Part shown: in pieces, positions 2,489-25,107 of the stretch
Layout of the letters: each line of letters opens with the position of its first letter
How positions within the stretch are numbered: position 1 is the stretch's first letter
Origin: a virus
DNA: 25,107 nucleotides
Virus record (IMG/VR): IMGVR_UViG_3300025127_000254
Coordinates: 1 to 25,107 of that record
Direction: 5' to 3' (one strand)
Program-made: the position numbers and the translations under genes
Notes under the pieces: generated by a model
What the model was told of the DNA's origin: nothing
Seen by the model: only the letters and a program-made list of their open reading frames with translations
The model's database searches: none

Positions 2489-2854
2489 ATGGAAACAGGC
2501 GAATATCAGAACGATATTGAAATCTTAAAAGATCTTGAAAAGTATAGATATGAAAATATTTTCAAGCTATATAAAACTGGCGAGAAAAATTTTTATTTTT
2601 ATAATATACTTAAAAAGATAAAATTACCTGATACGACAAACGAAAGATTATTTGAAACAGTTAAATTTACTGATCAAATGCCTCTAACCACATTAAGTTT
2701 TAGAATTTACGGTACTACTTATCTTTGGTGGACAATAGCTTTAGTTAATAATATTACTAACCCTGCAGAAATAGAATCAGGGAAAGAAATAAAATATATA
2801 AAAAAAACATTCTTAAAACCTGTCTTAGATAGTATACAACAGCAGCTTCAGTAA
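2489..2854 (+). CDS. gp53: Baseplate wedge protein gp53-like
   Basis: 121 residues, shorter than T4 gp53 (196). The diagnostic block is at residues about 65-100: LSFRIYGTTYLWWTIALVNN, then NPAEIESGKEIKYI. It matches the 'YG-x-LWW-x-I-x-x-x-N-x-I-x-(N/D)P' pattern of the LysM-like gp53 wedge family. gp53 joins neighbouring wedges around the hub, which fits the gene for a gp27-like hub protein directly downstream. The stop overlaps that next gene as TAATG, suggesting translational coupling. The start is supported by the late box 5 nt upstream. Confidence 0.75.
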   Translation: METGEYQNDIEILKDLEKYRYENIFKLYKTGEKNFYFYNILKKIKLPDTTNERLFETVKFTDQMPLTTLSFRIYGTTYLWWTIALVNNITNPAEIESGKEIKYIKKTFLKPVLDSIQQQLQ

Positions 2855-4419
2855 TGAGATACGATTTTGATACAGTATATGAAGATCAGTTTAGTTATAT
2901 TATTGATAATCAAAAATATATCTTTAAGGCTACTTTGTTTAATCCAGATGGTGATAACTTAACTTTAACTAAATCTCAAGTTAAAGAACTAAAATTATAT
3001 GATAATATTTTTCAACCCTGGATAAAGGGAGAAATTATTATAGACAATACTGAACAAGCATTAGAAAGATTTAGAACAAACCCAGTAGATAAAGAACTTA
3101 AACCAGGTTCAAAAGAAATTCAAGGCTATACTACCAGAGGAGATGGTAGGGACTTTATAAGAATTGAAATTATTCCATTGAATACCACTGACCAGGGATA
3201 TGATGAAAATTCAGATGAGTTTAATAAATTGTTTGGACTAAGATACTTTTTTAGTATTTCTGATGAGGAAACTGTGGATTTAAATAATACTGAATGTAGA
3301 AGATATATAATAAATGATTATGATTTAGAAATATTACATGAAAGAAAAACATTTTTTTCGTCTTCTCAATTAGTTAATACTACTGAAAGTGTTACTGATT
3401 TAAATAATAAAGATAGAGAATCTTATACGGGCGACTGCCTTAAAAAGATCTTAGCATTAGGTTTAAATGGTGACGACGTAGTAAAATTAGAAGAAAATCC
3501 AGATACGGGAGAGTATGTGTCACCTAAATTTGAAAGCGGTTCAAGTCGTATATTTTATTCTTCACCAGCAAACGCAAGTGCTTATTATGATTTAATGTAT
3601 ATATTAAAGAGACATGTTGGTGGTAGTGATAAACAAGATTTTTCATTTCTTAAAAAGCAAAATTTTTCTGGAGAATATACCCTTCAAAGTGCAGCGACTT
3701 TATTTTCAAAAGCATTTGTTCAAAGTAGAAATACAGGCGGGGAGTTATTCGTTGAAAACTTTACTATAACAGGTTCATCAAAAGAAGATACCAATATTAT
3801 TGAAACAGAAAAAAAATCGCCTGATGCATCTTTAGAGTTTGGAGAAAAAAGTGAAATTTTAAATTATAAATTTTTTAACACCCCTGGAAGACTTTATAAA
3901 GAAAAAATAAAAACGGAAGCTGTTCATTCTTATGATTTTAAAAATAAAAAATTTAATGTTGATATTTTTGATAGTAATGCAATTGCAGCAAAAACAAAAT
4001 TTTCGGAGCTTTACGTTACCCCGCTTAAAGGTAAAAATGGCAAGCCAGCACCCAACCTACCACTAACCGAAATGCAAAAACAGAATCTTACTTTTAATAA
4101 TATTTTTTCTGAATACGGAGATAACTCTGATATTCGTAAATCTTATGGGATAAATAAGCTTTTAAGAAATGCCCTAGTAACTAATATGGGGGTTGAAATA
4201 ATAGTAAAAGGTCAGACTTTGAGACGGTCTGGAACGTTTTTTAGCTTAGATAGAGCCGGGGATTATATAGACAATACATTTGATAATAAATTATTAGGTA
4301 TTTATTTTATAGCTGAAGTACAGCATGAGTTTGTTAATGATACAGAATACTATAATAAGATTATTGGTATTAAAACTTATCATTATGAAGACCCTAAATT
4401 TAGAGAGGACATGATATAA
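2854..4419 (+). CDS. Probable baseplate hub protein, gp27-like
   Basis: 521 residues. The N-terminal region has the phrase LKLYDNIFQPWIKGEIIIDN (residues about 46-65). This is the typical opening of hub proteins whose barrels sit around the central spike. The C terminus (GIYFIAEVQHEFVNDTEYYN and following) resembles the closing 'F-x-V-x-E-V-x-H-E' strand of T4 gp27. T4 gp27 is 391 residues, so this version carries about 130 extra residues, probably loops in the middle. It is translated through a TAATG overlap with gp53 and hands over to the next gene by another TAATG. The family assignment rests on short motifs and gene order only. Confidence 0.55.
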   Translation: MRYDFDTVYEDQFSYIIDNQKYIFKATLFNPDGDNLTLTKSQVKELKLYDNIFQPWIKGEIIIDNTEQALERFRTNPVDKELKPGSKEIQGYTTRGDGRDFIRIEIIPLNTTDQGYDENSDEFNKLFGLRYFFSISDEETVDLNNTECRRYIINDYDLEILHERKTFFSSSQLVNTTESVTDLNNKDRESYTGDCLKKILALGLNGDDVVKLEENPDTGEYVSPKFESGSSRIFYSSPANASAYYDLMYILKRHVGGSDKQDFSFLKKQNFSGEYTLQSAATLFSKAFVQSRNTGGELFVENFTITGSSKEDTNIIETEKKSPDASLEFGEKSEILNYKFFNTPGRLYKEKIKTEAVHSYDFKNKKFNVDIFDSNAIAAKTKFSELYVTPLKGKNGKPAPNLPLTEMQKQNLTFNNIFSEYGDNSDIRKSYGINKLLRNALVTNMGVEIIVKGQTLRRSGTFFSLDRAGDYIDNTFDNKLLGIYFIAEVQHEFVNDTEYYNKIIGIKTYHYEDPKFREDMI

Positions 4420-5252
4420 TGAGTAATAAAGTTACATTGCTACCAGACTATATTGATATAGTTCAGCAACCAAGCGTAGATTTTTATAAGAATAGTACGT
4501 CTCTTTTTGAAACATTTAAAGCCTATATAGGGGAGCTCAATACTTCAATAAATTTTGAAAAATCAAAAACTGAAACTAATATTGCCGAAAGTATGGCTGC
4601 TATTTTCAAGGCTTTAAATGATAATGATTTTAAGGTTGTAGTTGACGAGGTAGAATATAATTTTGACGAAGGGTTTAAATTATACTTTATTGAAAAATAT
4701 CAAACATTAATGGCATCTTTAAAAGATTTTATAAGCGAAACAATCGGTAAAGATAATGTATATTTTATAAACTATAGCGATGATATAGGAAATATAGCTA
4801 ATGAAACTAGCGTAGTAGATAATAGTACTTCTCCTTTTTTCGATACATACGATGATCTATTTAACTACCCTAATTCTTTGCCAGCTTCTTTATATAATAA
4901 AGTATCAAATAATGAGCTATCTACGTCTATTAAACTTTCTTTATTTACTGACGCATTAATGAAAACTAATCTAGGTGGTATTCAATCAACTTCAGATTCG
5001 AATGTTGCCAAGACAGCTCATGGTGATAATTTAGTAAATGATAACTTATATATTGACAGATTGTTTCTTTTAAAAGACCCAGTTAAATCAAAAATAAAGA
5101 CTGTATTAAATAATATGGCTGATTTTGTACAGTTTTTTAAAGGGGTTAATTATAAAGATAAAGATTCGGAAAGAAATGCTTTAGATTTAATATATTCAGC
5201 TACTATAGAAAATGTTGAAGTTGAAATAGATTTACTAAAAAATAAAGTTTAA
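4419..5252 (+). CDS. Hypothetical baseplate-region protein
   Basis: 277 residues, not recognised. It is acidic and Asn/Asp/Ser-rich, no cysteine was noticed, and there is no signal peptide or membrane segment. Helical stretches near residues 60-110 and 215-240 (DPVKSKIKTVLNNMADFVQF) flank a Ser/Asn-rich centre. It follows the hub gene with a TAATG overlap. A purine-rich AGAGGA lies 10 nt before the ATG, one of the few plausible Shine-Dalgarno sites in the window. The operon context suggests a tail or baseplate part, or an assembly factor. Its stop interlocks with the stop of the opposing gene (shared TTAA at 5249-5252). Confidence 0.75.
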   Translation: MSNKVTLLPDYIDIVQQPSVDFYKNSTSLFETFKAYIGELNTSINFEKSKTETNIAESMAAIFKALNDNDFKVVVDEVEYNFDEGFKLYFIEKYQTLMASLKDFISETIGKDNVYFINYSDDIGNIANETSVVDNSTSPFFDTYDDLFNYPNSLPASLYNKVSNNELSTSIKLSLFTDALMKTNLGGIQSTSDSNVAKTAHGDNLVNDNLYIDRLFLLKDPVKSKIKTVLNNMADFVQFFKGVNYKDKDSERNALDLIYSATIENVEVEIDLLKNKV

Positions 5253-5710
5253 TTTTCTTCTACTTCTATAATGTCGGCTTTTTTTATTAATTTAGCCATT
5301 AATTCTTCTCTGTTAAGTAGTAGTTTATGGTCCTGGTCATTTTGCTGTAAAGCTTTTTTACTCTCTATATCCATCTGTTTAATACCAACGGAAGTAACAT
5401 TTCTTTGATCAGCTACGTGCAATTTGCTAAGATTTTCTAAAGCTGCAGCAGATGCACCTACTAGTTTAGCTAATGCCTCAACATCTCTACTATCTGGAGC
5501 TGCAGCTACAAATTTTCCTATATCTTCAATATATTCTAAACTATCTTTTACTAATTTACCAGAGTTGTTTAATAAAAATTGCTCAAGTTTTTCTTTATCT
5601 AACTCAAATTCTGGCTCTTTTTTCGAAATAGATGTATCTTTAATTGCACCAGATGTTTTTAGATCATTTATTAAATCATCTACATCCGTTGTATTATCTG
5701 CATCGCTCAT
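5249..5710 (-). CDS. Probable small terminase subunit, gp16-like
   Basis: 153 residues from the preferred ATG at 5710. An upstream in-frame ATG at 5743 adds 11 residues but would bury the promoter-like box 5716-5723. The core, about residues 40-115, is two long helices separated by a Pro-Asp-Ser-Arg turn (AAAPDSRDVEALAKLVGASA, then a Leu-rich helix ending LSKLHV). That layout is typical of T4-family gp16: 'x-x-PR-x-x-E-x-x-x-x-L-x-x-x-x-x-x-x-x-x-L-x-x-LH'. gp16 forms the ring that recognises DNA and regulates the gp17 packaging motor. T4 gp16 is 164 residues. It lies alone on the minus strand among tail genes; the large subunit is not in the window. A scaffold or another helical protein remains possible. 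Confidence 0.55.
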   Translation of the reverse strand: MSDADNTTDVDDLINDLKTSGAIKDTSISKKEPEFELDKEKLEQFLLNNSGKLVKDSLEYIEDIGKFVAAAPDSRDVEALAKLVGASAAALENLSKLHVADQRNVTSVGIKQMDIESKKALQQNDQDHKLLLNREELMAKLIKKADIIEVEEN

Positions 5711-5715
5711 AAAAA

Positions 5716-5723
5716 TATTTAAT
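5716..5723 (-). promoter_or_regulatory. Late-type box ATTAAATA
   Basis: On the minus strand, ATTAAATA followed by TTTTT and the ATG at 5710: again a 5-nt spacer. It deviates from TATAAATA at two positions, but an identical box precedes the gene at 13933. Confidence 0.5.
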
Positions 5724-5731
5724 AGAATCCC

Positions 5732-5759
5732 TTGATTAAACAAGTTAGTATAGTATAAT
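5732..5759 (+). promoter_or_regulatory. Sigma70-type promoter for the dUTPase island
   Basis: A -35-like TTGATT (5732-5737) and a perfect -10 TATAAT (5754-5759) are separated by 16 nt. This differs from the late boxes and suggests early or middle transcription by host holoenzyme. The -10 ends 6 nt before the ATG at 5766, so this transcript too may start at the start codon. AGGTG at 5760-5764 is too close to the ATG to be a good ribosome site. Confidence 0.65.
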
Positions 5760-5765
5760 AGGTGT

Positions 5766-6230
5766 ATGAGTAAAGTAAGTATAAAATTTGTTAAGACGCA
5801 TGATGATGCTAAACTTCCTACGAAAGCTCATATGGGCGATAATTGTTTTGATTTGTATGCAGTTGAGGATACTGTGATACCTCGATGTAAATATGGCCCT
5901 ATTGATGAAGTATGGGTTGGTAGCAATGTCGTACCAGTTGGCATTACTGTAGGTTATATTTCTGAAGGTTATGGTTTTGTTCTTAGACCTAAATCAGGAT
6001 TAGGATTTAAAGCTGGGCTACAGCCTCATCTTGGTGAGATAGATAATGGTTACCGTGGTGATTGCGGCGTTAAAATGTATAACTTTTCTAATAAGGATTA
6101 TACTTTCAATAAAGGTGATAAAGTAGCTCAAATTAAGATAGAAAAAATTTATGATACTGTAGTTGAATGGACTAATGAAATTGAAGAAGCTCAAAGAGGA
6201 GATGCAGGTTTTGGATCATCCGGTAAGTAG
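5766..6230 (+). CDS. dut: Deoxyuridine 5'-triphosphate nucleotidohydrolase (dUTPase)
   Basis: 154 residues, normal for a trimeric dUTPase, which hydrolyses dUTP to dUMP and pyrophosphate. It keeps uracil out of DNA and feeds dTMP synthesis. All five family motifs are present. Motif 1 is around residues 23-31 (MGDNCFDLY). Motif 2 is RPKSGLG at 74-80. Motif 3 is GEIDNGYRGD at 90-99, with the catalytic Asp93 and the uracil-stacking Tyr96. Motif 4 is GDKVAQ at 117-122. Motif 5 is RGDAGFGSSG at 144-153. A short insertion after motif 1 (residues 41-52) is unusual but outside the active site. It heads a plus-strand replication island with the clamp loader and has its own sigma70-like promoter. Confidence 0.97.
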   Translation: MSKVSIKFVKTHDDAKLPTKAHMGDNCFDLYAVEDTVIPRCKYGPIDEVWVGSNVVPVGITVGYISEGYGFVLRPKSGLGFKAGLQPHLGEIDNGYRGDCGVKMYNFSNKDYTFNKGDKVAQIKIEKIYDTVVEWTNEIEEAQRGDAGFGSSGK

Positions 6231-6239
6231 GAACATTAA

Positions 6240-6245
6240 TATAAT
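6240..6245 (+). promoter_or_regulatory. Possible -10 box TATAAT before the 36-residue ORF
   Basis: TATAAT sits 5 nt before the ATG at 6251, the same geometry as other starts in the window. I see no good -35, so it may be weak or fortuitous in this AT-rich DNA. Confidence 0.3.
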
Positions 6246-6250
6246 AAGAT

Positions 6251-6361
6251 ATGGGTAAAGTTACAAGACAACGAATAACCGAAAAAAAAGTTGGTAGTGC
6301 TAAGATACGTAAAACTGTAACTGTTACAGTAACGAGGCCTTCTAAAAGAAAACGTAAATAA
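6251..6361 (+). CDS. Small basic 36-residue protein
   Basis: ATG at 6251, stop TAA at 6359-6361. The peptide begins MGKVTRQRITEKKVGSAKIR, continues with a Val/Thr strand (TVTVTVT) and ends in a basic tail (RPSKRKRK). More than a third of the residues are Lys or Arg, so it very likely binds nucleic acid or an acidic partner. Its stop overlaps the clamp-loader ATG (TAATG), so the two are probably co-translated. It fills the gap between dUTPase and clamp loader exactly, which argues that it is a real gene. No family recognised. Confidence 0.6.
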   Translation: MGKVTRQRITEKKVGSAKIRKTVTVTVTRPSKRKRK

Positions 6362-7275
6362 TGTTTAATAATCTCTGGGTTGAAAAATATCGTCCGAAAA
6401 CTCTTAGTGACTTAGTATTATCTGATACTAATAAAAAGTACTTTGAATCTATAACTGACGAGATACCTAACTTATTATTTGTTGGTACTCCTGGTCTAGG
6501 AAAGACCACCCTTGCAAGGATTCTTATTGAAGATGTATTAAAATGTCAGTATCTATATATAAATGCTTCTGATGAAAATGGCATCGATACTATACGCTCT
6601 AAGGTAGTAGGCTTTAGTCAGACTAAGTCTCTCGATGGGTCTATTAAAGTAGTAATACTTGATGAGGCTGACGGTATAACCATCGACGGTCAAAGAGCTC
6701 TACGTAATACTATGGAGGAATATTCGAGTCAGACTCGCTTTATTCTTACCGCTAATTATAAGCATAAGATTATACCTGCTATACAAAGTCGTACTCAATC
6801 TTTTGATTTAAATCCCCCTTTTGAAGATGTAGTAACGCGTATAGTTGAGATAGTTAAAAGCGAAGGTGTAAAGATTGACGATAGTCAAAAGGGTAACTTC
6901 GTTAATACTATTAAGCAAAACTACCCTGATATACGCAAGATCATTAATGCTGTGCAGAAGGCTTGCGTTAAGGGTAAATTTACAATTGATATAGCTCTAG
7001 ATAGTAAAGAAATTGTTGATAGAGTTCATAAAGAAATACAGAGTAGTAATGTTATTGGGTTACGTAAATACCTAATTGAAAACGAAAACGAGTTTCAAGG
7101 TGACTATCATAACTTAATGAAGCAATACTTAAACTTCGTATATGAAAGTAGTATCGCAGATGATAAAAAGCGAGAGTATATCCTTGTATTGAGTGATTAT
7201 ATGTATAAGGATGTATTTGTGTTAGATAAAGAGATTAACGCGTTTGCGTGTTGGGCGAGTCTTTCTAAAGTTTGA
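6361..7275 (+). CDS. gp44: Sliding clamp loader large subunit, gp44-like AAA+ ATPase
   Basis: 304 residues (T4 gp44 is 319). It is an ATPase that, with gp62, loads the gp45 sliding clamp for replication; in T4-type phages the loaded clamp also activates late promoters. Visible motifs are the N-terminal WVEKYRPKTLSDLV signature of clamp loaders, Walker A GTPGLGKT (residues 42-49), Walker B VVILDEAD (97-104), sensor 1 in LTAN (129-132), and the SR of the arginine-finger motif at 143-144. The usual Cys after SR is Thr here (SRT). The collar domain follows. Start by TAATG coupling to the small basic ORF. The small subunit (gp62) does not follow, unlike the T4 order 45-44-62. Confidence 0.97.
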   Translation: MFNNLWVEKYRPKTLSDLVLSDTNKKYFESITDEIPNLLFVGTPGLGKTTLARILIEDVLKCQYLYINASDENGIDTIRSKVVGFSQTKSLDGSIKVVILDEADGITIDGQRALRNTMEEYSSQTRFILTANYKHKIIPAIQSRTQSFDLNPPFEDVVTRIVEIVKSEGVKIDDSQKGNFVNTIKQNYPDIRKIINAVQKACVKGKFTIDIALDSKEIVDRVHKEIQSSNVIGLRKYLIENENEFQGDYHNLMKQYLNFVYESSIADDKKREYILVLSDYMYKDVFVLDKEINAFACWASLSKV

Positions 7276-7278
7276 TTA

Positions 7279-7286
7279 AATAAATA
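7279..7286 (+). promoter_or_regulatory. Late-type box AATAAATA, unusually close to the ATG
   Basis: Only 1 nt separates this box from the ATG at 7288, unlike the 5-8 nt elsewhere. With T4 geometry the transcript would start inside the ORF, so the box may have another role or be part of a copied leader block. Confidence 0.35.
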
Positions 7287-7302
7287 CATGAAAGATAATG
7301 AT
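7280..7302 (+). repeat. Leader repeat, copy 1 (box + ATG + first codons)
   Basis: 23 nt: ATAAAT, two variable bases, then ATGAAAGATAATGAT. It matches the minus-strand block 8537-8559 at 21 of 23 positions; only the two bases before the ATG differ. Both blocks encode MKDND. Confidence 0.8.
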
Positions 7303-7743
7303 CTTTACCTAATTGCAGAACAATATGAAGTAATTTTAAACGAAGCGGACAAGATTGAGCGAAGAAAGCGCAACGCAATTGATAATCTTCAATTAGCTTT
7401 AGATGTAATTGGTCTAGACCCCGTCTTTCAGGTCGGAACTGCTGCAGATTTAGTAAATTTTACAATATCTGGACTCAGATCAGGATTAGCTTTAGCTCAA
7501 AGAGAGGGTGATATAGCTAAGGAACATGCAATTAACGCTGGTATATCCGCTATATCTTTAATACCATTTGCTGATATAATTAAGGTATTAAAACTGCGTA
7601 AATTAGGTAAACTAGCAAAGCCAGCAACTAAGTTAGCGGTAGCGGGTGGTAGGGCTGCTAAAGGGTATGGTATAAAGAGAAAACTAGATAGAATTGCTAA
7701 TGCTAAATCTGAAAAATCGGATCAGGATAGTATCGATATTTAG
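7288..7743 (+). CDS. Putative internal head/ejected protein with pre-toxin-like hydrophobic segment
   Basis: 151 residues. The leader MKDNDLYLIAEQYEVILNEA carries IAE (9-11) and LNE (17-19), matching the (L/I)xE rule of T4 gp21 prohead protease. T4 internal protein III is, from memory, cut after a similar ten-residue leader ending IAE. Residues 35-105 form hydrophobic helices: LALDVIGLDP, GTAADLVNF, then HAINAGISAISLIPFADIIK. This resembles the pre-toxin (PT-TG type) region found before toxin domains in polymorphic toxins. The rest is Lys/Arg-rich with a small Ala/Gly helix; no toxin domain follows. I infer a capsid-packaged, possibly membrane-active protein. The stop interlocks with the opposing gene (TTAG at 7740-7743). 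Confidence 0.6.
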   Translation: MKDNDLYLIAEQYEVILNEADKIERRKRNAIDNLQLALDVIGLDPVFQVGTAADLVNFTISGLRSGLALAQREGDIAKEHAINAGISAISLIPFADIIKVLKLRKLGKLAKPATKLAVAGGRAAKGYGIKRKLDRIANAKSEKSDQDSIDI

Positions 7744-8249
7744 AGTAAAATAAAAGCTAATACCGCTAGCCCCCCAGATCCTATTTTTGAATCTAGGAAC
7801 TGACCAGTATTGTCTAAAAGTTCTAACCACCAAGATTGTTCTTTAGTTGGGTATTTTTCTGCCAACTCATCCGCTAAAGCCTTTTTCAAGCGAATAATTT
7901 TTGACTTAGGCAGGTCGCCGCCCTTTTCTGCTATTTCAGCTAATCTAATTTCTTTTTCGTATTTCTTTTCAAAATCTGCATCATCATTAAACTTTTTTAA
8001 ATTTTTCTTATTTTTTCTTATAATAAAATTTATAGCTTTACCTAAAATTCTAGCTCCTAAAAATACCGAGGCAGTTGTAACAACTGTACTTAGAATATTG
8101 CTAAAGAATTCATAAATTTGCACAAAGATATTAGGCCCGGTTAAGGCTCCGGAGCCGAGAAACCCCGGAAAACCGAGTACTTCACATAAAACTTCTTGAA
8201 GCTCAGCTTCAGCTGTTTTATCTTCATAAAACTCCTGAAAGGTGTTCAT
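7740..8249 (-). CDS. Putative internal head protein with two membrane segments
   Basis: 169 residues. The N terminus MNTFQEFYED resembles the T4 internal-protein capsid-targeting leader (MKTYQEF type, from memory), and LQE at 17-19 fits a prohead-protease site. Residues 41-78 are a long hydrophobic segment, followed by a strongly charged Lys/Glu region (78-135). The last 13 residues (from GSGG) are again hydrophobic, so both ends could insert into a membrane. The start overlaps the stop of the upstream gene as TAATG, indicating coupling. A holin or other lysis protein is the main alternative, because small two-segment membrane proteins also look like this. The leader favours a virion role. 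Confidence 0.5.
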   Translation of the reverse strand: MNTFQEFYEDKTAEAELQEVLCEVLGFPGFLGSGALTGPNIFVQIYEFFSNILSTVVTTASVFLGARILGKAINFIIRKNKKNLKKFNDDADFEKKYEKEIRLAEIAEKGGDLPKSKIIRLKKALADELAEKYPTKEQSWWLELLDNTGQFLDSKIGSGGLAVLAFILL

Positions 8250-8551
8250 TAGCAGTTTTCGCCGTCTTCGTTATGTTCGTCGTCTTCGTGAGTATCTTCT
8301 TCGTTTTCACCAGCTTTTTTAAGGCAGTAATCGCCTATCTTTTTAAGCTGTTCTGAAGTAAGATAATTAAGAGACTGTATAATGCCATCAAGTGCTATAC
8401 CTGTACCTTTAGCTGCTACACCGCCGACAGCTAAGCCAGTCTTACCTGCAGCTCTGCCAGTTGCTTTAGCTGCGCTTCCAAGAGCAGACATTACACCTTC
8501 TTGTATTTGGCCGTAGGCCTCTTCGAGTAGTTTTGAATCATTATCTTTCAT
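8249..8551 (-). CDS. Putative internal head protein, glycine/alanine-rich with acidic tail
   Basis: 100 residues from the ATG at 8551. A farther in-frame ATG at 8587 would overlap the upstream gene and is less likely. The leader MKDNDSKLLEEAYGQIQEG parallels that of the 7288 gene and offers LLE (8-10) and IQE (16-18) sites. Residues 19-60 are small and hydrophobic (GSAAKATGRAAGKTGLAVGG, then a Gly/Ala helix), which could lie in a membrane. After a helix with one Cys, the tail (81-100) is almost entirely Glu, Asp, His, Asn and Gly and ends in Cys. The neighbours on both sides share the leader type. Function unknown. Confidence 0.6.
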   Translation of the reverse strand: MKDNDSKLLEEAYGQIQEGVMSALGSAAKATGRAAGKTGLAVGGVAAKGTGIALDGIIQSLNYLTSEQLKKIGDYCLKKAGENEEDTHEDDEHNEDGENC

Positions 8552-8559
8552 AAATTTAT
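8537..8559 (-). repeat. Leader repeat, copy 2 (box + ATG + first codons)
   Basis: Minus-strand partner of 7280-7302; see that entry. The box here is GATAAATT (8553-8560), 1 nt before the ATG at 8551, and overlaps the stop codon of the preceding minus gene. Confidence 0.8.
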
Positions 8560-9152
8560 CCCATATATTGTGTTGTATAATTACCAACCTGACTTGGTTT
8601 ACTTACCGTACCACCGGCTGGTATCTTAGTATTTTGTTTTGGTAAATAAATTTCTGTAGGTTTTAAAGAGTCACCTTGTTGAGTCATTCTTGTAAGCTCT
8701 GTTTGCTCGTCCTCTTGCTTGACCTCTTCTGGATCGATCTGAACTTTGTTGTCATACTTAACGCTATCCGGTACTGGTGCTTTTCCAAAATCTTCATCAT
8801 GGCCTTCAGTATTTTGTATTAATAGATCTGCAGGAATAGAAACCGCATTTTTATTATCATAAAGACCGTTCGCTAATTCAATAGCGACGTCAGCAGTATA
8901 TACTCCAGCTCTATTATCTTCATTCCCCGGTGCTCTAGAAGGCATATCAGTTTTAATATTAATTACTTTTTTATTAAGATCAGTATCTTTGAATATTTTT
9001 TCAATATAGTCTTTTACAGTATCTGCTAGACCTTTATAACTATCTTTTGATTTATAGTTATCCACTAGATCAACTCTATCACCAACCAATATACCACCAT
9101 TGGTCATTCTCTGAATAGTTGATTCTACTAAATTTAAGAATTTATTTGCCAT
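8556..9152 (-). CDS. Hypothetical phage protein, possible structural
   Basis: 198 residues, first gene of the minus-strand trio. The N terminus has a helix (FLNLVESTIQRM) and then GGILVGDRVDLV (residues 19-30), a GD-turn of the kind seen in small beta-barrel (KOW/SH3-like) folds. The middle block RAPGNEDNRAGVYTADVAIE alternates strands and turns. The C-terminal third is Pro/Gln/Thr-rich and probably disordered. No enzyme motif and no cysteine was noticed. I have an impression of similar proteins in T4-like marine phages but cannot name a family. The start is fixed by the late box 5 nt upstream. It probably drives expression of the two following small genes. Confidence 0.75.
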   Translation of the reverse strand: MANKFLNLVESTIQRMTNGGILVGDRVDLVDNYKSKDSYKGLADTVKDYIEKIFKDTDLNKKVINIKTDMPSRAPGNEDNRAGVYTADVAIELANGLYDNKNAVSIPADLLIQNTEGHDEDFGKAPVPDSVKYDNKVQIDPEEVKQEDEQTELTRMTQQGDSLKPTEIYLPKQNTKIPAGGTVSKPSQVGNYTTQYMG

Positions 9153-17539: not shown

Positions 17540-19273
17540 ATGGCTACAGATATCAAAATTTCAGAACTTAATGAGATCACGCAGAACTCAGATATAAACC
17601 AGATTATAGTAAATGATAGGGAAAGTGCTGGCGATAGCGGTATCACTAAACGTATAAATCTTGATAATTTTTTAACTGCTAGTTTAGTTAAAACTAGAAA
17701 TATAGCTGACTTAAATGTTACAACTGATAAGCTAGATACTGGTGCAGTTACTTTTGATAAAATAGCTAATAAATCTATAACCTGTAACCAAATAGCTGAT
17801 GAAACTATTTGTAATGGTTTAATAGAAGACAGTGCTATTAATAATAGAACTCTCGATAATAATGGCGATTTTACAGTGTCGAGACTTGTTGCTACAACCA
17901 GTCTTCAAGCACCGCAGGTAGCAGCAACTAGCAAATTAACCGTTGACAATGGGTGTGTTAAATTAAACGGTTTAGATTATGAATTTCCTAGTACACAAGT
18001 ACCTCAACATTTTTTGAGAACTGATGGAGCCGGAAATCTTTCATGGGAAGAAGCAGCTCCGGGCGCAGGCACGGCTTTAGTATTTGATCAAATTTTCCCT
18101 GTAGGTACTATAATCCCTTATGGAGGTAGTGCAGCTGTACCTAATGATCAATGGATTGCTCTAGATGGTTCAAATAATAGTAGATTTGACGGGGTTGCAT
18201 ATCCAGAATTATCAGCAGCTCTAGGAACAACATGGGGAGCTAGATATACCTCAGAAAGTGGAAGCACTACTTCCTCTACGGGTAGATATTTCTCTTTACC
18301 TAATATGTCGGGAAGAGTTCCAATAGGTCAAGGTACTGGAACAGATAATGCAGGGACGACCTGCTCATTTGGAATGGGTAGTACTACTGGTTTATATTGT
18401 CAGACATTAAATGCCAATAATATTCCATCACACACACATTGTTATAGAAATGATTATTTTATAGAGATTCATAATAGTCAAAAATGTGTTGATTATATTG
18501 AAAATGTTGGCTCGGGTTTATTTGGGTCCGGGAGATCTGATAGTGATAATATATACGTTTATGGAAGATGCTGCACTACAGCGCAAAATTCAACTTCAAA
18601 TTCTGCTTTCTCTATTGTTCAGCCAGTTGCATCTACAAGATATATTATAAAAGCTAAACCAGATCATATTCAACAATTTGGCATGGCCGTAGGGGTAGGT
18701 CTTTCAGCTCTCGACGGGGCAGGCGCTCAAACAAATACTATAGATTTATCTAGTACAGAATTAGGTATAAAAATTGATCATAATCAATTACAATTTTCTG
18801 GATCTAATGAAATACAATTAAAAACAAATACTGTTTTAACCGATACAGAATTTGTTAGGGTTAATGGCGCTACCAATCCCTTAGTTCATGATGAACGCAC
18901 TACTTGTGGAGTAGTCAAAGAATACTGCTTATGTGATTTTACTGACGCTGGTGGTATACTCGATGCAACAACAAGATGCGATATTCGAGGCGTGGTTATG
19001 ACGTATAATGTATTTAACGGGCAAAATGTTATTGCAAATCGGTTTTCGGAAGTTCTTGTAAATACAGATAATGGAGGTGTAGACGCTGGGTATGATGTTG
19101 TAGGTAGATATAGTTCACAAAATGGTGATGATGATGGTGGCTCCGGAGCAATGACTACTATACCTCTTAATAAAGATTTAACATCATTCTGTTTTAAGTA
19201 TAATGTGAATCCCCATAAATGTAATTATGCACAAACAAGAATTCTTGGAGTGATTATTAACAAATACGCTTAA
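17540..19273 (+). CDS. Tail fibre protein with collar domain, cysteine-rich
   Basis: 577 residues. The N-terminal 45 residues (KISELNEITQ, then INLDNF) look like a virion-docking module shared with the 22239 fibre. Next come beta-helix-like repeats (TDKLDTGAVTFDKIANKSI) and the linker FLRTDGAGNLSWE. Residues 185-300 form a phage tail collar domain: PVGTIIPYGG, WIALDGS, FSLPNMSGRVPIGQG and NIPSHTH. The rest (about 300-577) is a distal region ending in a Cys-containing tip. I count about 15 Cys, while most other structural proteins here have none or one. The HTH of SHTH resembles the HxH iron-binding motif of T4 gp12. Likely a receptor-binding short-fibre counterpart. Confidence 0.9.
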   Translation: MATDIKISELNEITQNSDINQIIVNDRESAGDSGITKRINLDNFLTASLVKTRNIADLNVTTDKLDTGAVTFDKIANKSITCNQIADETICNGLIEDSAINNRTLDNNGDFTVSRLVATTSLQAPQVAATSKLTVDNGCVKLNGLDYEFPSTQVPQHFLRTDGAGNLSWEEAAPGAGTALVFDQIFPVGTIIPYGGSAAVPNDQWIALDGSNNSRFDGVAYPELSAALGTTWGARYTSESGSTTSSTGRYFSLPNMSGRVPIGQGTGTDNAGTTCSFGMGSTTGLYCQTLNANNIPSHTHCYRNDYFIEIHNSQKCVDYIENVGSGLFGSGRSDSDNIYVYGRCCTTAQNSTSNSAFSIVQPVASTRYIIKAKPDHIQQFGMAVGVGLSALDGAGAQTNTIDLSSTELGIKIDHNQLQFSGSNEIQLKTNTVLTDTEFVRVNGATNPLVHDERTTCGVVKEYCLCDFTDAGGILDATTRCDIRGVVMTYNVFNGQNVIANRFSEVLVNTDNGGVDAGYDVVGRYSSQNGDDDGGSGAMTTIPLNKDLTSFCFKYNVNPHKCNYAQTRILGVIINKYA

Positions 19274-19281
19274 GCGTTTTT
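19266..19281. terminator. Palindrome over the interlocked stop codons; weak bidirectional terminator candidate
   Basis: ACGCTTAAGCGT (19266-19277) is a perfect 12-nt palindrome, that is a 4-bp GC-rich stem with TTAA as loop. TTTTT (19277-19281) follows on the plus strand. On the minus strand the tail is ATTT. The TTAA is the shared stop region of both genes. The stem is short, so termination would be weak. Confidence 0.35.
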
Positions 19282-20058
19282 AAGATCTTCAACTTCTTTA
19301 GAAAGTCTTTTTACTTCCTCAATAAGAACCGGAATAAGTTTAATATAATCTACAGCTAGCATCCCGCTGTCTCTTTCATGAACTATCTCAGGTAATACCT
19401 CTTTAACTTCCTGAGCTAAAACTCCTAAAGATTTACCTTCTAGTTCAGCGTCTTCTTTCCAAGTAAAGGTATAACCATTTATACCATTAATAATTTCTTT
19501 AGATGATTCGATTTTATTAATATCATCTTTCAATCTTTCATCAGATGATGAGAAAGCAACAATATCGCCTCCGCCAAATATAGTGCCACAGCTAAATATT
19601 GTACCATTATTAAAAAGAGTATTGCAAGTAGTATCACCGCCTGCATCAGATACTGTACCTTCACCAAAATTAACTCTACCTTTAGCAAAGAATAAACCTG
19701 GACTACACCCTCCAGTTGCGTTATTTACTGAAAATTCAGTAGAAGTTCCTTTACCTACAAAAAAATCTCCTTCTACGTTGACTTCACCTCCGGTACCAGT
19801 TTGATTAATATTACATGCATTTACACTACAGCCATCTCCTACTACAATGTTACCGGCGCAAGTATCTAACTGACCATTTACTAGTATACCGCCGCTAGCT
19901 CTTGCAATACATAGGGAACTTTCTATTCCCATACCATCAGTAACTATAATTCTAGTTGAAAATGGATCTGGTAAGATACAATTATTACACCCTGCTTCAC
20001 CTACATTTAAAATTGACTTAAATGTATTACAAATATTTTTTCCTTCATATAGAGCCAT
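19270..20058 (-). CDS. Fibre/spike protein with S74 intramolecular chaperone domain
   Basis: 262 residues. The C-terminal domain from about residue 170 is the endosialidase-type intramolecular chaperone (peptidase S74). It contains SSDERLKDDI, GYTFTW, GVLAQEVKEVLPEIV, AVDYIKLIPVLIEEVK and a terminal coiled coil. The catalytic pair would be Ser172 and Lys177 (S-D-E-R-L-K). This domain trimerises the fibre and then cuts itself off. The fibre part (1-165) is Gly/Asn-rich with ten cysteines at 10, 24, 27, 50, 67, 77, 82, 118, 145 and 157; the chaperone has none. The gene is convergent with the collar fibre and shares its stop (TTAA). It may form the tip of a fibre together with the neighbouring 657-residue protein. 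Confidence 0.93.
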   Translation of the reverse strand: MALYEGKNICNTFKSILNVGEAGCNNCILPDPFSTRIIVTDGMGIESSLCIARASGGILVNGQLDTCAGNIVVGDGCSVNACNINQTGTGGEVNVEGDFFVGKGTSTEFSVNNATGGCSPGLFFAKGRVNFGEGTVSDAGGDTTCNTLFNNGTIFSCGTIFGGGDIVAFSSSDERLKDDINKIESSKEIINGINGYTFTWKEDAELEGKSLGVLAQEVKEVLPEIVHERDSGMLAVDYIKLIPVLIEEVKRLSKEVEDLKNA

Positions 20059-20085: not shown

Positions 20086-22059
20086 TTAAAAGGTTACTAT
20101 TTCATTATCCTGATACTTCTTACCAGAGAATCTTTTTAATAGATTGCCTAATATTTTTTGTTGATAACGGTATATTTTAATAATACACCTGTTGAATACT
20201 TCTGGCGTTATAACTTCATTGACGCCTACAAAATAGTCGTAATCTTTTTCTTCAACCAATGAACTACTTAAACCTACATTACCGGTATAAGACATAAGTC
20301 TATATTCGCTTGAATCAAATTCAAATAAAAATCCAAACCCTATTCTAGAGGCAAGGCTATCTAAATTAAATAATATTTTTTTTATACTTTTATTAAAAGT
20401 AATATTATTAAAATATTCTTCTTTTACATTAACGTCATTTTTATCAAAAATATTAAAATTATCATTATGTAGGTTGGATAATTGCTCATTATTTTCATTA
20501 AATCTTAAAACTCTATCAAATCCGTTAAACGTAGTACCATCTGCTCCAGCATTTTTTTGATATAAGAAAATAGAATCTCTATCATCATTTTCAGGTAAAA
20601 TTTTAGCATCAAATATTTGATAGTCAGATCCCGATAATTCCACATTAACAACGTTATCCCATTTATATGCTCCAATATAATCATCTTGATCAGCTACTAG
20701 TAAATATTTATAAACATTATAATTTGTTATAATATAGTATAAATTGCTGTCATTTTGTGAAAATAAAATTCGTTTCGGTATTTCACCTTCTCTTAAAACA
20801 TTTCTAGGATATAATAATTCTGCAGTCCCTTGAAATAAAGCATCTACTTCTAGAACACTAAAATCAGTAAATAAAATATACAATTTACTATCAATAGGAT
20901 TTATTGCAAAGTCCGCAACCGTTCTAGTCTCAAAATACTTAGAAGAAAATTCTCTAGTTTTTGATAAATTATCAGCCAGGACAATTATACTTTTTCTACC
21001 ATCATTCCAGGTATATATTTCATTAGCATAATAATAAATTAAATTTGCGCCCGATAAAAAGTCAGTACCTGCTGTATTTAGCTTTAACCCTCCAGCATTA
21101 ATTAAATCAAAATTAGTTTGATTTATTCTACTTTCATTAAGAATAGGATCTATATATAGTCTATATATTTGGTTATGAAACGCATCACTAACATATAATG
21201 TATCACGATTATTAGTTGTTATATCAGTAATTTGCTGAAAATTTTGCGAAAAAGGTCCATCAGCTCTATTAGTTGAAACAACAAATGAGGCTGTCGATGA
21301 TTCAGAAGCATCATTAGGCATTTTGTACACGCTTATGGCGGAAGTAGTGAAGTATATAGTTAAGAAATCGGTAGGGGTGGTAGAATTTAAAGGATTGGCC
21401 TCATTTACTCTCATTCCAATAACATCAAACCCTCTAGCGTCATTTAAATCTGATGCACTTGTACTAGCAAAATCGGAGGATAAATTAGGGCCAACAGCAC
21501 TATCTTTAACTACCTGAGTTAAATTACCCACAGCTCCATTACTCACTCCAGTACATCCTAAAAAGCTAGTATAATTTCTTGGAATATTATTGTCTCTTAT
21601 AAAACAAAGATTATATAACTCTAGAAAATTTTCATATAGTTTATCAAACTTTAAATTAATAGTATTCTGATTTACAAACTCGCTTGGCTGAAATAAAAGA
21701 GAATCTTCTAAATGAGGAAGGCTTATATTAGTTGATGTGCCTCTATTTAAAAAAATATTTGATAAAATAAAATTACCTTTAATATTGTCTTGAATTTGAA
21801 GTTCAGTTGAGTTAACCGTTCTAACCCTTCTTGCCCAAATTTTATTGTCGGAAATATTATAATATCCTGTATAAGGATTACCTCCACTTAGAAACGTATC
21901 TCCTAATGTATAATTAAAAGTTACAGAATGGTAATCACCAATCATTAATGATCCATCTGCCATTCTATGATATCCTTTAGGAGTTGGTAAATCAGATGAT
22001 GAATTAGATGATGGACCAGTCTCCGAATTATTAGAATATGTTGTAGTACTATAAGACAT
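20086..22059 (-). CDS. Large virion protein, probable beta-propeller adhesin
   Basis: 657 residues. After a Ser/Thr/Asn-rich start comes GYHRMADGSLMIGDYH (residues 29-44). This resembles an N-terminal 'GYH-x-MPDG-x-LM' motif I recall in marine phage virion proteins. Much of the middle has blade-like repeats, e.g. RDTLYVSDAFHNQIYRLYID (NHL-like), IDSKLYILFTDFSVLEVD and DSNLYYIITNYNVYKYLLV, suggesting a beta-propeller of about six blades. The C terminus is helical and basic (KIYRYQQKILGNLLKRFSGK), perhaps for docking. Few Cys. It shares the minus block with the S74 protein, 27 bp apart, so the two may form one fibre. Receptor binding is inferred. Confidence 0.75.
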   Translation of the reverse strand: MSYSTTTYSNNSETGPSSNSSSDLPTPKGYHRMADGSLMIGDYHSVTFNYTLGDTFLSGGNPYTGYYNISDNKIWARRVRTVNSTELQIQDNIKGNFILSNIFLNRGTSTNISLPHLEDSLLFQPSEFVNQNTINLKFDKLYENFLELYNLCFIRDNNIPRNYTSFLGCTGVSNGAVGNLTQVVKDSAVGPNLSSDFASTSASDLNDARGFDVIGMRVNEANPLNSTTPTDFLTIYFTTSAISVYKMPNDASESSTASFVVSTNRADGPFSQNFQQITDITTNNRDTLYVSDAFHNQIYRLYIDPILNESRINQTNFDLINAGGLKLNTAGTDFLSGANLIYYYANEIYTWNDGRKSIIVLADNLSKTREFSSKYFETRTVADFAINPIDSKLYILFTDFSVLEVDALFQGTAELLYPRNVLREGEIPKRILFSQNDSNLYYIITNYNVYKYLLVADQDDYIGAYKWDNVVNVELSGSDYQIFDAKILPENDDRDSIFLYQKNAGADGTTFNGFDRVLRFNENNEQLSNLHNDNFNIFDKNDVNVKEEYFNNITFNKSIKKILFNLDSLASRIGFGFLFEFDSSEYRLMSYTGNVGLSSSLVEEKDYDYFVGVNEVITPEVFNRCIIKIYRYQQKILGNLLKRFSGKKYQDNEIVTF

Positions 22060-22238: not shown

Positions 22239-25107
22239 ATGGCTATTGGAACAAAAATAACTGGGCTCACACCAGAGCTTGAAGAAAATGTAACTAATAA
22301 TACTTTACTGTATATAGTTAACAATAATGAGTCTAAACAGATAGTATTAGATAATCTAATTTTTGATGGTATCATAGTTGCAGATAAAATAGGTATAAAT
22401 GCTGTTATTGCAGAAAAAATTAAAACTAATGCTATTGAAGCAAAACACTTAAAAGCCAATGCTATAACAGCTGATAAAATTCAAGCAGGTTTAATTACTG
22501 CGGAAATGTTGAGAATAACAGGTACTGGAGCTATTAATCCTTCTACTATAGGCGCAGCAGAAGCTACAGCATTTGGTAGCGCATTAACTGATATTGCATC
22601 TCTCCAAAGCTCCGTGAGTAATTTAGAGGCGACAAGTGATGGGGGAATTAATACTTTTTATGAAACTGAACAACCCGCAAATCCAGCGATAGGAGACCTT
22701 TGGTTCGATACTGATGATAACCAATTGTATAGATGGAACGGTGCATCTTGGGATAATATTAGAGATCCGGATATTGTTCAAGCAATAGCTGACGCCGCTA
22801 ATGCTGCAGCGACAGCTGATAAAAAAATTACAACTTACTATCAAGATGAAGCGCCTGAGAATGACTTAGTAGACGGTACTCCTTTAGGCGCTGATGATGA
22901 TGGAGATTTATGGTTTGATACTGATGATGGTAATAAACTTTATAGGTGGAATGGTACTACACTCCCCTACGGGTGGGTCGAAGTAACTGATAGTAGAGTA
23001 GGGACTTTAGCAACTCAAATGGCCGACGCGATAGAGGATATTAGTGGTCTTACCGGAACCGTTAACACTTTACAATCTACAGCGGATGGTGGCATTAATA
23101 CATTTTATCAAACTGAGGCGCCAACAGGAAGTGAAGGTGATTTATGGGTAGACACGGATGATGGGAATGCACTTTATAGATGGGATGGCTCTGTATGGCA
23201 ACCTATTCAAGATGAATTTATACGGACAGCTTTCGTTTCGGCTACAGCAGCAGCTGATGTTGCTGATAGTAAGATTACAACATACTATGGTGATGATCCA
23301 CCTACTCATGATTTAATTGATGGTACTCCTTTAGGTGCTGATGATGATGGTGATCTATGGTTTGAAACAGATGAAGATAATAAACTGCATAGATGGAATG
23401 GTACTTCACTCCCCTACGGGTGGGTACCAGTTACAGATACAAGAGTAGATACATTATCTACTAGTTTGGTATCTGCTGTAACTAGTATTACAACCCTTGA
23501 AGATAGAGCTGATGGCTATGTACATACTTTTTATCAGGGCACTGAACCAACAAATGCAGATGTTGCAGCAGGTGATTTACAATCTGGAGATCTATGGGTT
23601 GATACAGATGATAATAAATTGTACAGATATAATGGTGCAACTTTTGAAGCAATTCAAGATACAGCTATTCAAACAGCATTTTCTTCCGCAACAGCTGCCG
23701 CAAATGTTGCCGATGGTAAAATAACAACATTTTATGGAGAAAATCCTCCTACTCTTGATCCAATAGACGACACTGATTTAGGCGTTGAAGATGAGGGTGA
23801 TTTATGGTTTCAACAAGGCCAGAATAATAAACTGCATCGATGGAGTGGAAGTGAATGGGAAGTAGTGCAAGATACCCGTGTTGATACTATTTTAACAGAT
23901 TTAGGAACCGCGGTAACTGATATTACCACTTTGCAAGGAGAAACTGACGGGTATATTCATACATTCTATCAACCCAATACACCCACTAATTCAGATTTAT
24001 CTGCCGGTAGTATAGGTATTGGAGATTTATGGGTAGATACGGATAATGGTAATAGATTATTCCGATATAACGGTACCGGGTGGGATGAAATAGTTGATGC
24101 CGCTATCCAAACAGCTTTCGTTTCAGCTACAGCAGCTGCTGATATTGCTGATAATAAAATTACAACATATTATAGCCCGGAACCTCCTGAATACGATGCG
24201 ATAGACAACACTGCTTTAGGCGTTGAAGATGAGGGTGATTTATGGTTTGAAACAGATAACAACAACCTCTTACATAGATGGTCCGGAAGTGAATGGCAAG
24301 TGGTGCAAGATACTTCAATTCAAGATAATATTTACACCACAGGTACTACTACAATAGACGGTGGTAGAATGACTACGGGTAGCTTATCCGCTGATTCTAT
24401 AGCAGCTAACAATATTACATCAGGTAAAATTAAAACCGATAGTATTGTTGCGAGACATATACTATCAGATGAAATCGATACTAATCATTTAAAGGCAAAT
24501 TCTATTACTACAGTAACATTAGCAGCTAGCGCTGTAACTGCACAAAAAATATCAAGTGGTACTATAGCATCTGAAGCAATGTTAGCGTCTAATATTATAA
24601 CAGGTGTATCTATATCTTCAAATGCTGTTGTAACTGGATCTGTAGCTAGTAAAAACTTTGATGGCTCTTATAATGCAGATACCGGACTTATAGATGCAGG
24701 TACTGAAGGATTTTTCTTAGAAGGTAATACCGGAACTATAGTAGCAAATACTTTGGTTGCTAGAGATGATATTATTACTGGTGATATGATTAAATTTAGT
24801 AGTGGTAAGGCCCTTTCTGCTGGCCCGGACGGGGATTTACAAGTTGTAGTAGATGATGAAACTCTCTCGGTTCAAGATGGTAAATTAGCAATTAAAACAG
24901 TACCTCAAACTGCAGTTGTTATACCTACTGCTGCGGTAACTTATTCTGGTGCGCTTAATGATTATGATAAAGGCACGTTTATTCGAGGTGGTAATGATCT
25001 AAGTTATAGCAGTAGTGCGCAACAGCAGTTCAATTTAGGAACATTTCTTAATATTCATTATGAAGGGGAAAGTACCTCAACGTCTGGAAATCCTACTGTA
25101 TTTACAA
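22239..25107 (+). CDS. Modular repeat tail fibre (3' end outside window)
   Basis: 956 residues visible with no stop. Residues 1-45 share a docking pattern with the 17540 fibre (KITGLTPELE, LLYIVNN, IVLDNL). Residues 43-95 and about 705-800 are beta-helix-like strings such as EAKHLKANAITADKI and DTNHLKANSITTVTL, common in lambda J-type and other central or side fibres. Between them (about 134-692) are eight modules of the GDLWFDTDDGNKLYRWNG type. These alternate between a 'TFYQTE' form and an 'ITTYY..PP' form, with Ala-rich helices between them. The tail end is Gly/Ser-rich. No chaperone or collar is seen before the window ends. Likely a long tail fibre or adhesin whose repeats set its length. 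Confidence 0.85.
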   Translation, partial: MAIGTKITGLTPELEENVTNNTLLYIVNNNESKQIVLDNLIFDGIIVADKIGINAVIAEKIKTNAIEAKHLKANAITADKIQAGLITAEMLRITGTGAINPSTIGAAEATAFGSALTDIASLQSSVSNLEATSDGGINTFYETEQPANPAIGDLWFDTDDNQLYRWNGASWDNIRDPDIVQAIADAANAAATADKKITTYYQDEAPENDLVDGTPLGADDDGDLWFDTDDGNKLYRWNGTTLPYGWVEVTDSRVGTLATQMADAIEDISGLTGTVNTLQSTADGGINTFYQTEAPTGSEGDLWVDTDDGNALYRWDGSVWQPIQDEFIRTAFVSATAAADVADSKITTYYGDDPPTHDLIDGTPLGADDDGDLWFETDEDNKLHRWNGTSLPYGWVPVTDTRVDTLSTSLVSAVTSITTLEDRADGYVHTFYQGTEPTNADVAAGDLQSGDLWVDTDDNKLYRYNGATFEAIQDTAIQTAFSSATAAANVADGKITTFYGENPPTLDPIDDTDLGVEDEGDLWFQQGQNNKLHRWSGSEWEVVQDTRVDTILTDLGTAVTDITTLQGETDGYIHTFYQPNTPTNSDLSAGSIGIGDLWVDTDNGNRLFRYNGTGWDEIVDAAIQTAFVSATAAADIADNKITTYYSPEPPEYDAIDNTALGVEDEGDLWFETDNNNLLHRWSGSEWQVVQDTSIQDNIYTTGTTTIDGGRMTTGSLSADSIAANNITSGKIKTDSIVARHILSDEIDTNHLKANSITTVTLAASAVTAQKISSGTIASEAMLASNIITGVSISSNAVVTGSVASKNFDGSYNADTGLIDAGTEGFFLEGNTGTIVANTLVARDDIITGDMIKFSSGKALSAGPDGDLQVVVDDETLSVQDGKLAIKTVPQTAVVIPTAAVTYSGALNDYDKGTFIRGGNDLSYSSSAQQQFNLGTFLNIHYEGESTSTSGNPTVFT
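22960..22978 (+). repeat. GC-rich 19-nt exact repeat, copy 1
   Basis: CACTCCCCTACGGGTGGGT, identical to 23408-23426. It encodes LPYGWV in the first two B modules; the last two B modules have SGSEW instead. Confidence 0.8.
23408..23426 (+). repeat. GC-rich 19-nt exact repeat, copy 2
   Basis: Second copy of the block at 22960-22978, in the second B module. Confidence 0.8.

Follow-up and report, generated by a model that had tools for sequence, protein, structure and literature searches.

The window analysed here, a 25-kb virus record of 25,107 nucleotides taken at its full length, holds a T4-like tail module comprising a gp6-like baseplate protein, a clamp loader and fibres. The gp6-like protein matches phrog_219 at 1e-44 and is 62-67% identical to loci of uncultured viruses; the nearest isolates among the matches listed are 27-30% identical in gp6 (this being the range for cyanophages) and 39% identical in the clamp loader. 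Because of its relatives and its low GC the virus is probably marine, and the clade to which it belongs probably consists of marine, uncultured T4-like viruses of bacteria. These relatives were recovered from viral contigs by gp6 and alignment queries, one search supplying the best 80 of 185; scanning viral contigs with a single collar or S74 protein gave no matches, and an alignment query found no gp6 relative in genome contigs. Two fibre genes of the window converge, and the features discussed below are as follows.

17540..19273, plus strand: T4 gp12-like collar fibre, 577 aa, 15 Cys (PF07484, 3.2e-6; profile match to PDB 1PDI/1OCY).
18104..18322, plus strand: Phage Tail Collar domain, residues 189-261 (Pfam).
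18362..18364, plus strand: codon of C275, conserved in 9/10 collars (collar alignment).
18431..18439, plus strand: H298-T-H300, in register with the HxH that binds metal in T4 gp12 (profile and collar alignments, literature passages).
19270-20058, minus strand: S74 fibre, 262 aa, 10 Cys (ORF and Pfam PF13884).
19546..20058, minus strand: fibre part of the S74 protein, residues 1-171, 10 Cys or 5.8% (Cys counts).
19828..19830, minus strand: codon of C77, the most widely shared S74 Cys (17/24 of the type-B fibres with a residue there, in a gappy alignment).
19273..19545, minus strand: S74 intramolecular chaperone and C-terminal helix, residues 172-262, no Cys (PF13884, 3.4e-16 at 172-226; block mean pLDDT 69-89).
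20086..22059, minus strand: 657-aa neighbour, 3 Cys; similar-sized proteins adjoin S74 fibres in relatives.
22239..25106, plus strand: fibre-like ORF that lacks Cys but has 21 Trp, in contrast to its neighbours in the window.

From their homology, both proteins probably form trimeric fibres of the usual kind on the baseplate or tail of a T4-like phage: the collar gene would encode a gp12-like, collar-headed fibre, and the S74 gene a short fibre with a cleavable chaperone. A profile built from six collars matches the T4 gp12 short tail fibre (1PDI, E 1.2e-10; 1OCY, 2.2e-10) with HxH aligned on HxH, and the HxH that a sequence-only reading of this DNA had noticed within SHTH lies, as HTH, at collar residues 298-300. 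In the 1OCY chain the two histidines correspond to positions 116 and 118, equivalent to His445 and His447 if that chain starts at 330. The motif is conserved in 9/10 clade collars and present in all four distant relatives picked from 132 matches. Unlike gp12, the window collar has 15 Cys, of which C275 aligns to a T4 proline, and its N- and C-terminal parts are different. Passages of PMC6116203 describe the gp12 HxH as binding zinc in the crystal, perhaps not the natural metal, and iron as held by HxH in T4 gp37, pyocin fibres and several spikes. By its alignment, then, the collar HxH is a known kind of site, separate from the Cys feature; H298 and H300 of three chains would together build the HxH metal site typical of fibres like gp12.

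Like other Peptidase_S74-chaperoned phage fibres, the window's S74 protein has a C-terminal PF13884 domain and the residues S172, D173 and K177, invariant in 14/14 S74 sequences; S172 and K177 are presumably the Ser and Lys of the S74 cleavage site. It departs from them in the fibre part, where Cys reaches 5.8%; for 17 long fibres from outside the clade the figure is 0.2%. All ten Cys stand at residues 10-157 and the Pfam domain spans 172-226, so that the segment presumably removed by cleavage holds none, just as the sequence-only reading had said; its count of about 15 Cys in the collar was likewise right. A Cys-free chaperone is not general, however, since 3/39 relatives have 2 Cys there. 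Structure models add little to the placement of these residues: a single-chain AlphaFold2 model of the collar (6 sequences) reaches pLDDT 30, too poor for the purpose, and that of the S74 protein (14 sequences), good in the chaperone, was dropped for placing Cys as 127/262 residues fall below 50, almost all of them within the fibre part.

How unusual is this content? The collar's 15 Cys in 577 aa amount to 2.6%, and 13 other tail-region ORFs of our own choice contain 7 Cys in 6041 aa (0.12%), giving odds of 26 and P 1.5e-17 in a pooled Fisher test of the two fibres against them. Outside the 13 stand the clamp loader (3 Cys), a 154-aa ORF at 5766-6230 (3 Cys), a 151-aa ORF at 7288-7743 (0 Cys) and four minus-strand ORFs at 5249-9152 (0-2 Cys). 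If Cys occurred at that 0.12%, the observed counts would have P = 8e-16 for the collar and 1e-12 for the S74 fibre; with 1.1%, the average in a relative with a 185-kb genome (G002), the values become 0.003 and 0.0009. The sequence-only reading is nearly correct in giving the remaining large structural proteins at most one Cys, the exceptions being a 521-aa ORF at 2854-4419 with two and the 657-aa ORF with three. The latter has no Pfam or PHROGs match at E 0.01; proteins of 629-689 aa adjoin S74 fibres in six relatives (L018, L021, L023, L024, L029 and L137), and a YxGYYN stretch near the N-terminus is common to several such neighbour proteins.

The enrichment extends through the clade. In 39 S74 fibres (12 of type A and 27 of type B, the window's among the latter; contig-end ORFs, duplicates and proteins >400 aa excluded) the fibre parts contain 241 Cys in 6878 aa, or 3.50% (range 0-7.7%), with Cys in 36 of them, 0-12 each and zero in 3. 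These sequences are related, and only the neighbour-pattern test described below thins them, to 22 representatives below 0.6 similarity; the composition and neighbour analyses used a nearly identical set of 39, in which the representative of a group of duplicates may differ. Outside the clade Cys amounts to 0.20% in 17 long S74 fibres (S74 proteins >400 aa, near-duplicates included and shorter ones left out), while seven shorter outside fibre parts (L038, L047, L048, L050, L056, L062, L063) have 0-1 Cys. In the clade's own gp6, Cys stands at 0.07% (29 proteins). In three cyanophage-type records S74 fibres have 0.15-0.5% Cys, and in some such records large non-S74 ORFs near the fibres reach 1.2-1.8%. 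A 956-aa ORF of marine virus AG-345-F15 has 17 Cys (1.8%), a 928-aa ORF of phage Sf-FS3 has 16 (1.7%), a 2521-aa stretch of ACG-2014f has 30 (1.2%), and fibre ORFs of Pelagibacter phage Mosig have 0-1%. The same convergent collar/S74 pair occurs in L004, L006 and L007 with 13/14, 11/14 and 10/14 Cys, respectively, and Cys numbers in the ten clade collars, two of them partial, lie between 2 and 15. L099, L100, L102 and L105 have three small ORFs between collar and S74, one with 6-7 Cys in 152-156 aa, and a contig-end 310-aa ORF in L109 (9293-10225, minus strand) has 25 Cys (8.1%) and no Pfam match.

Other kinds of fibre share the feature. In G002, analysed in 20-kb pieces with ORFs spanning the borders cut, there are 226 ORFs, and the nine most enriched in Cys include five fibre-like proteins: a 669-aa tail-tip protein (PF09327, over cut-off) with 31 Cys, an S74 fibre that has 11, and three repeat proteins rich in glycine, the 1628-aa one with 42 and the others with 13 each. 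A 1109-aa repeat protein of another relative (G007) has 37. From their pattern we read the glycine-rich repeats as YadA-like beta-rolls; all matches of the repeat proteins to the UspA1 repeat in Pfam were below cut-off. The remaining four enriched ORFs of G002 are a 64-aa ORF and three that overlap radical SAM matches (76203-81809, not among the window's fibre genes), whose Cys richness is such as iron-sulfur enzymes would show. An anoxic host as the reason for the cysteines is weakened by a class Ia ribonucleotide reductase subunit of G002, over the curated cut-off, which speaks against such a host. Glutaredoxin gave 0/8 matches where controls did match, and a search for an Erv1/Alr sulfhydryl oxidase gave no match but is uninformative, its control having been silent too.

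What level of Cys should one expect if nothing acted on it? For the clade S74 fibre parts the random-codon expectation is 3.44%, against 3.50% observed, and Ser is likewise at expectation; in the window the collar falls a little short of its own expectation (2.60 vs 3.13) and the S74 part exceeds its own (5.85 vs 3.88). Positive selection is therefore not demonstrated. The near-equality favours the main rival to our reading, neutral tolerance, in which the exposed fibre surfaces of the clade stop purging Cys, the residue drifts to the level of random codons and the thiols are idle; content as variable as it is here, with zero Cys in 3/39, and the turnover of positions set out below would fit it as well. 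Yet the same segments lack Trp and have Met, His, Tyr and Arg at levels 2.5 to 5.5 times lower than expected, and Cys richness is common to several fibre kinds. With Cys at expectation while these five are depleted, and with Cys in gp6 and the S74 fibres of other phages at least 15-fold rarer than expected, it looks as though Cys avoidance has been specifically lifted on the exposed fibre surface, as opposed to a general relaxation. We regard neutral tolerance as somewhat unlikely, if deserving of serious weight.

The placement of the cysteines bears on the same question. In 81 matched beta-roll-like repeats 42/44 Cys occupy six variable positions; among the other freely variable positions, 7 and 9 have one Cys each and 12, 13 and 15 none, and the absence of Cys at positions 1, 2, 5, 14 and 16 is without meaning because the search pattern fixes them. 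These repeats cover 44 of the 79 Cys in two beta-roll-like proteins, both from relatives of the window virus. In the S74 fibres the outward neighbour value of Cys is 0.155 over the 22 representatives, compared with 0.044 for random polar or small positions (4/1000 reach the Cys value) and 0.002 for hydrophobic or Ala positions (0/1000); over the unthinned set Cys is the highest of the residues, level with Arg (0.151, 0.149). This pattern suggests that the cysteines face outward on S74 fibres. We reject Cys as a buried small residue of the trimer core on the repeat positions and the S74 neighbour pattern, and a preference for outward positions even over those of other polar or small residues again counts against neutral tolerance.

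The individual positions turn over. Overall Cys retention is unremarkable to low, at 0.60 in S74 fibres and 0.52 in collars, where Trp reaches 0.77. It is high at short range (0.89 in close collars; 98% of Cys common in 13 close S74 pairs) and falls to 0.19, rank 14/19 among residues, in type-B S74 pairs less than 70% identical; where both members have Cys (263 of these pairs), 31% of the smaller Cys set is common. Alignment columns with Cys in at least half of the members number 4 in type A and 1 in type B. The window collar has 1-3 of its 15 Cys in common with each of five homologues. Conservation among homologues, on which the sequence-only reading had hung its proposals, is thus mostly lacking, with Cys scattered over outward or variable positions; the exceptions are C275 and C77 (17/24, in a gappy stretch), each the sole Cys of its window protein kept in more than half of the homologues. 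C67 is invariant in the first four S74 sequences and not across the wider set.

Because positions turn over, odd totals are as common as even ones and no clear sign of pairing emerges, neither disulfide staples nor Cys metal sites are supported. Disulfides within or between chains, locking the fibres once they are released, would suit exposed proteins with many Cys, and close relatives do retain them well; a CNNC at window S74 residues 24-27 has a CxxC counterpart at that place in 3/27 type-B fibres (window, L017, L020), and same-column Cys neighbours in one beta-roll-like protein number 3 vs 0.96 expected, a borderline excess seen in ~5% of shuffles (2 vs 1.7 in the other). However, the fibre-part Cys totals of the 39 S74 fibres are 19 odd, 17 even and 3 zero, Cys pairs within repeats show no excess (4 and 3 vs 7.2 and 3.1 expected), and most positions are lost between relatives. 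Fixed staples, as first proposed, consequently appear improbable. The companion proposal of metal sites holds for the HxH, by the gp12 match, and mostly fails for the cysteines. A Zn, Fe or Fe-S site in the fibre tip would gain from C275, which lies 23 residues before the HxH in 9/10 collars, the one collar without it (L105) having lost the HxH too, from the CxxC of those three type-B fibres and from C301, directly after the HxH and found only in the window among the collars compared. Most Cys nevertheless lack fixed partners in the alignments, and at the C275 site the four distant HxH relatives have Arg (one) or a gap (three), leaving Cys-ligated metal very improbable.

Our preferred reading, to which we give a probability of slightly under one half (about 0.48), is that the cysteines are mostly unpaired, exposed residues at changeable positions of adhesins, forming a thiol-bearing contact surface. 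Most of them would belong to no fixed staple or ligand set and would mostly be without fixed pairs; the strong Cys avoidance seen in gp6 and in the S74 fibres of other phages would be lifted on several fibre kinds, and the thiols, as small, soft and reactive side chains, would bind cell-surface groups, content outweighing position. The redox state of the cysteines, like their part in adhesion, is something we infer. A more specific version makes surface thiols, displayed in large numbers by unrelated fibre kinds, the adhesion chemistry of this lineage, in which the number of Cys and not their position matters, thiol-disulfide exchange or soft-metal bridges link the fibre to envelope proteins, and shifting positions diversify the contact surface; we hold it to be rather doubtful. 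Several results count against the preferred reading: Cys content is not constant (collars 2-15, S74 parts 0-12, the ORF at 22239-25106 none), close relatives retain their Cys, some alignment columns and the CxxC recur, one neighbour test is borderline, and Cys-bearing ORFs also occur near the fibres of some cyanophage-type records.

Two known systems offer partial parallels. Cow antibody loops, with shifting cysteines, are also Cys-rich variable binding surfaces, but those antibodies favour even Cys totals (PMC7366855), which the clade fibres do not. The marine Alteromonas phage R22Y likewise has HxH in an iron-binding tail fibre, with six such motifs there and one in the window, and the main text (PMC11705849) is without the word 'cysteine'. 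Searches of openly licensed papers for Cys in phage fibres listed none on Cys-rich ones. Judging from the fibres compared, other phage groups mostly avoid exposed Cys and this lineage carries it on several fibre kinds, apparently facing outward, which raises the question of whether reactive thiols take part in host recognition; Cys content may, moreover, flag adhesins in unannotated viral genomes.

A minor observation concerns the junction of the two genes. The convergent stop codons of collar and S74 fibre overlap within a palindrome, CGCTTAAGCG, at window 19267-19276, followed by five T; it is not listed by a terminator scan, and is perhaps a tiny two-way terminator.
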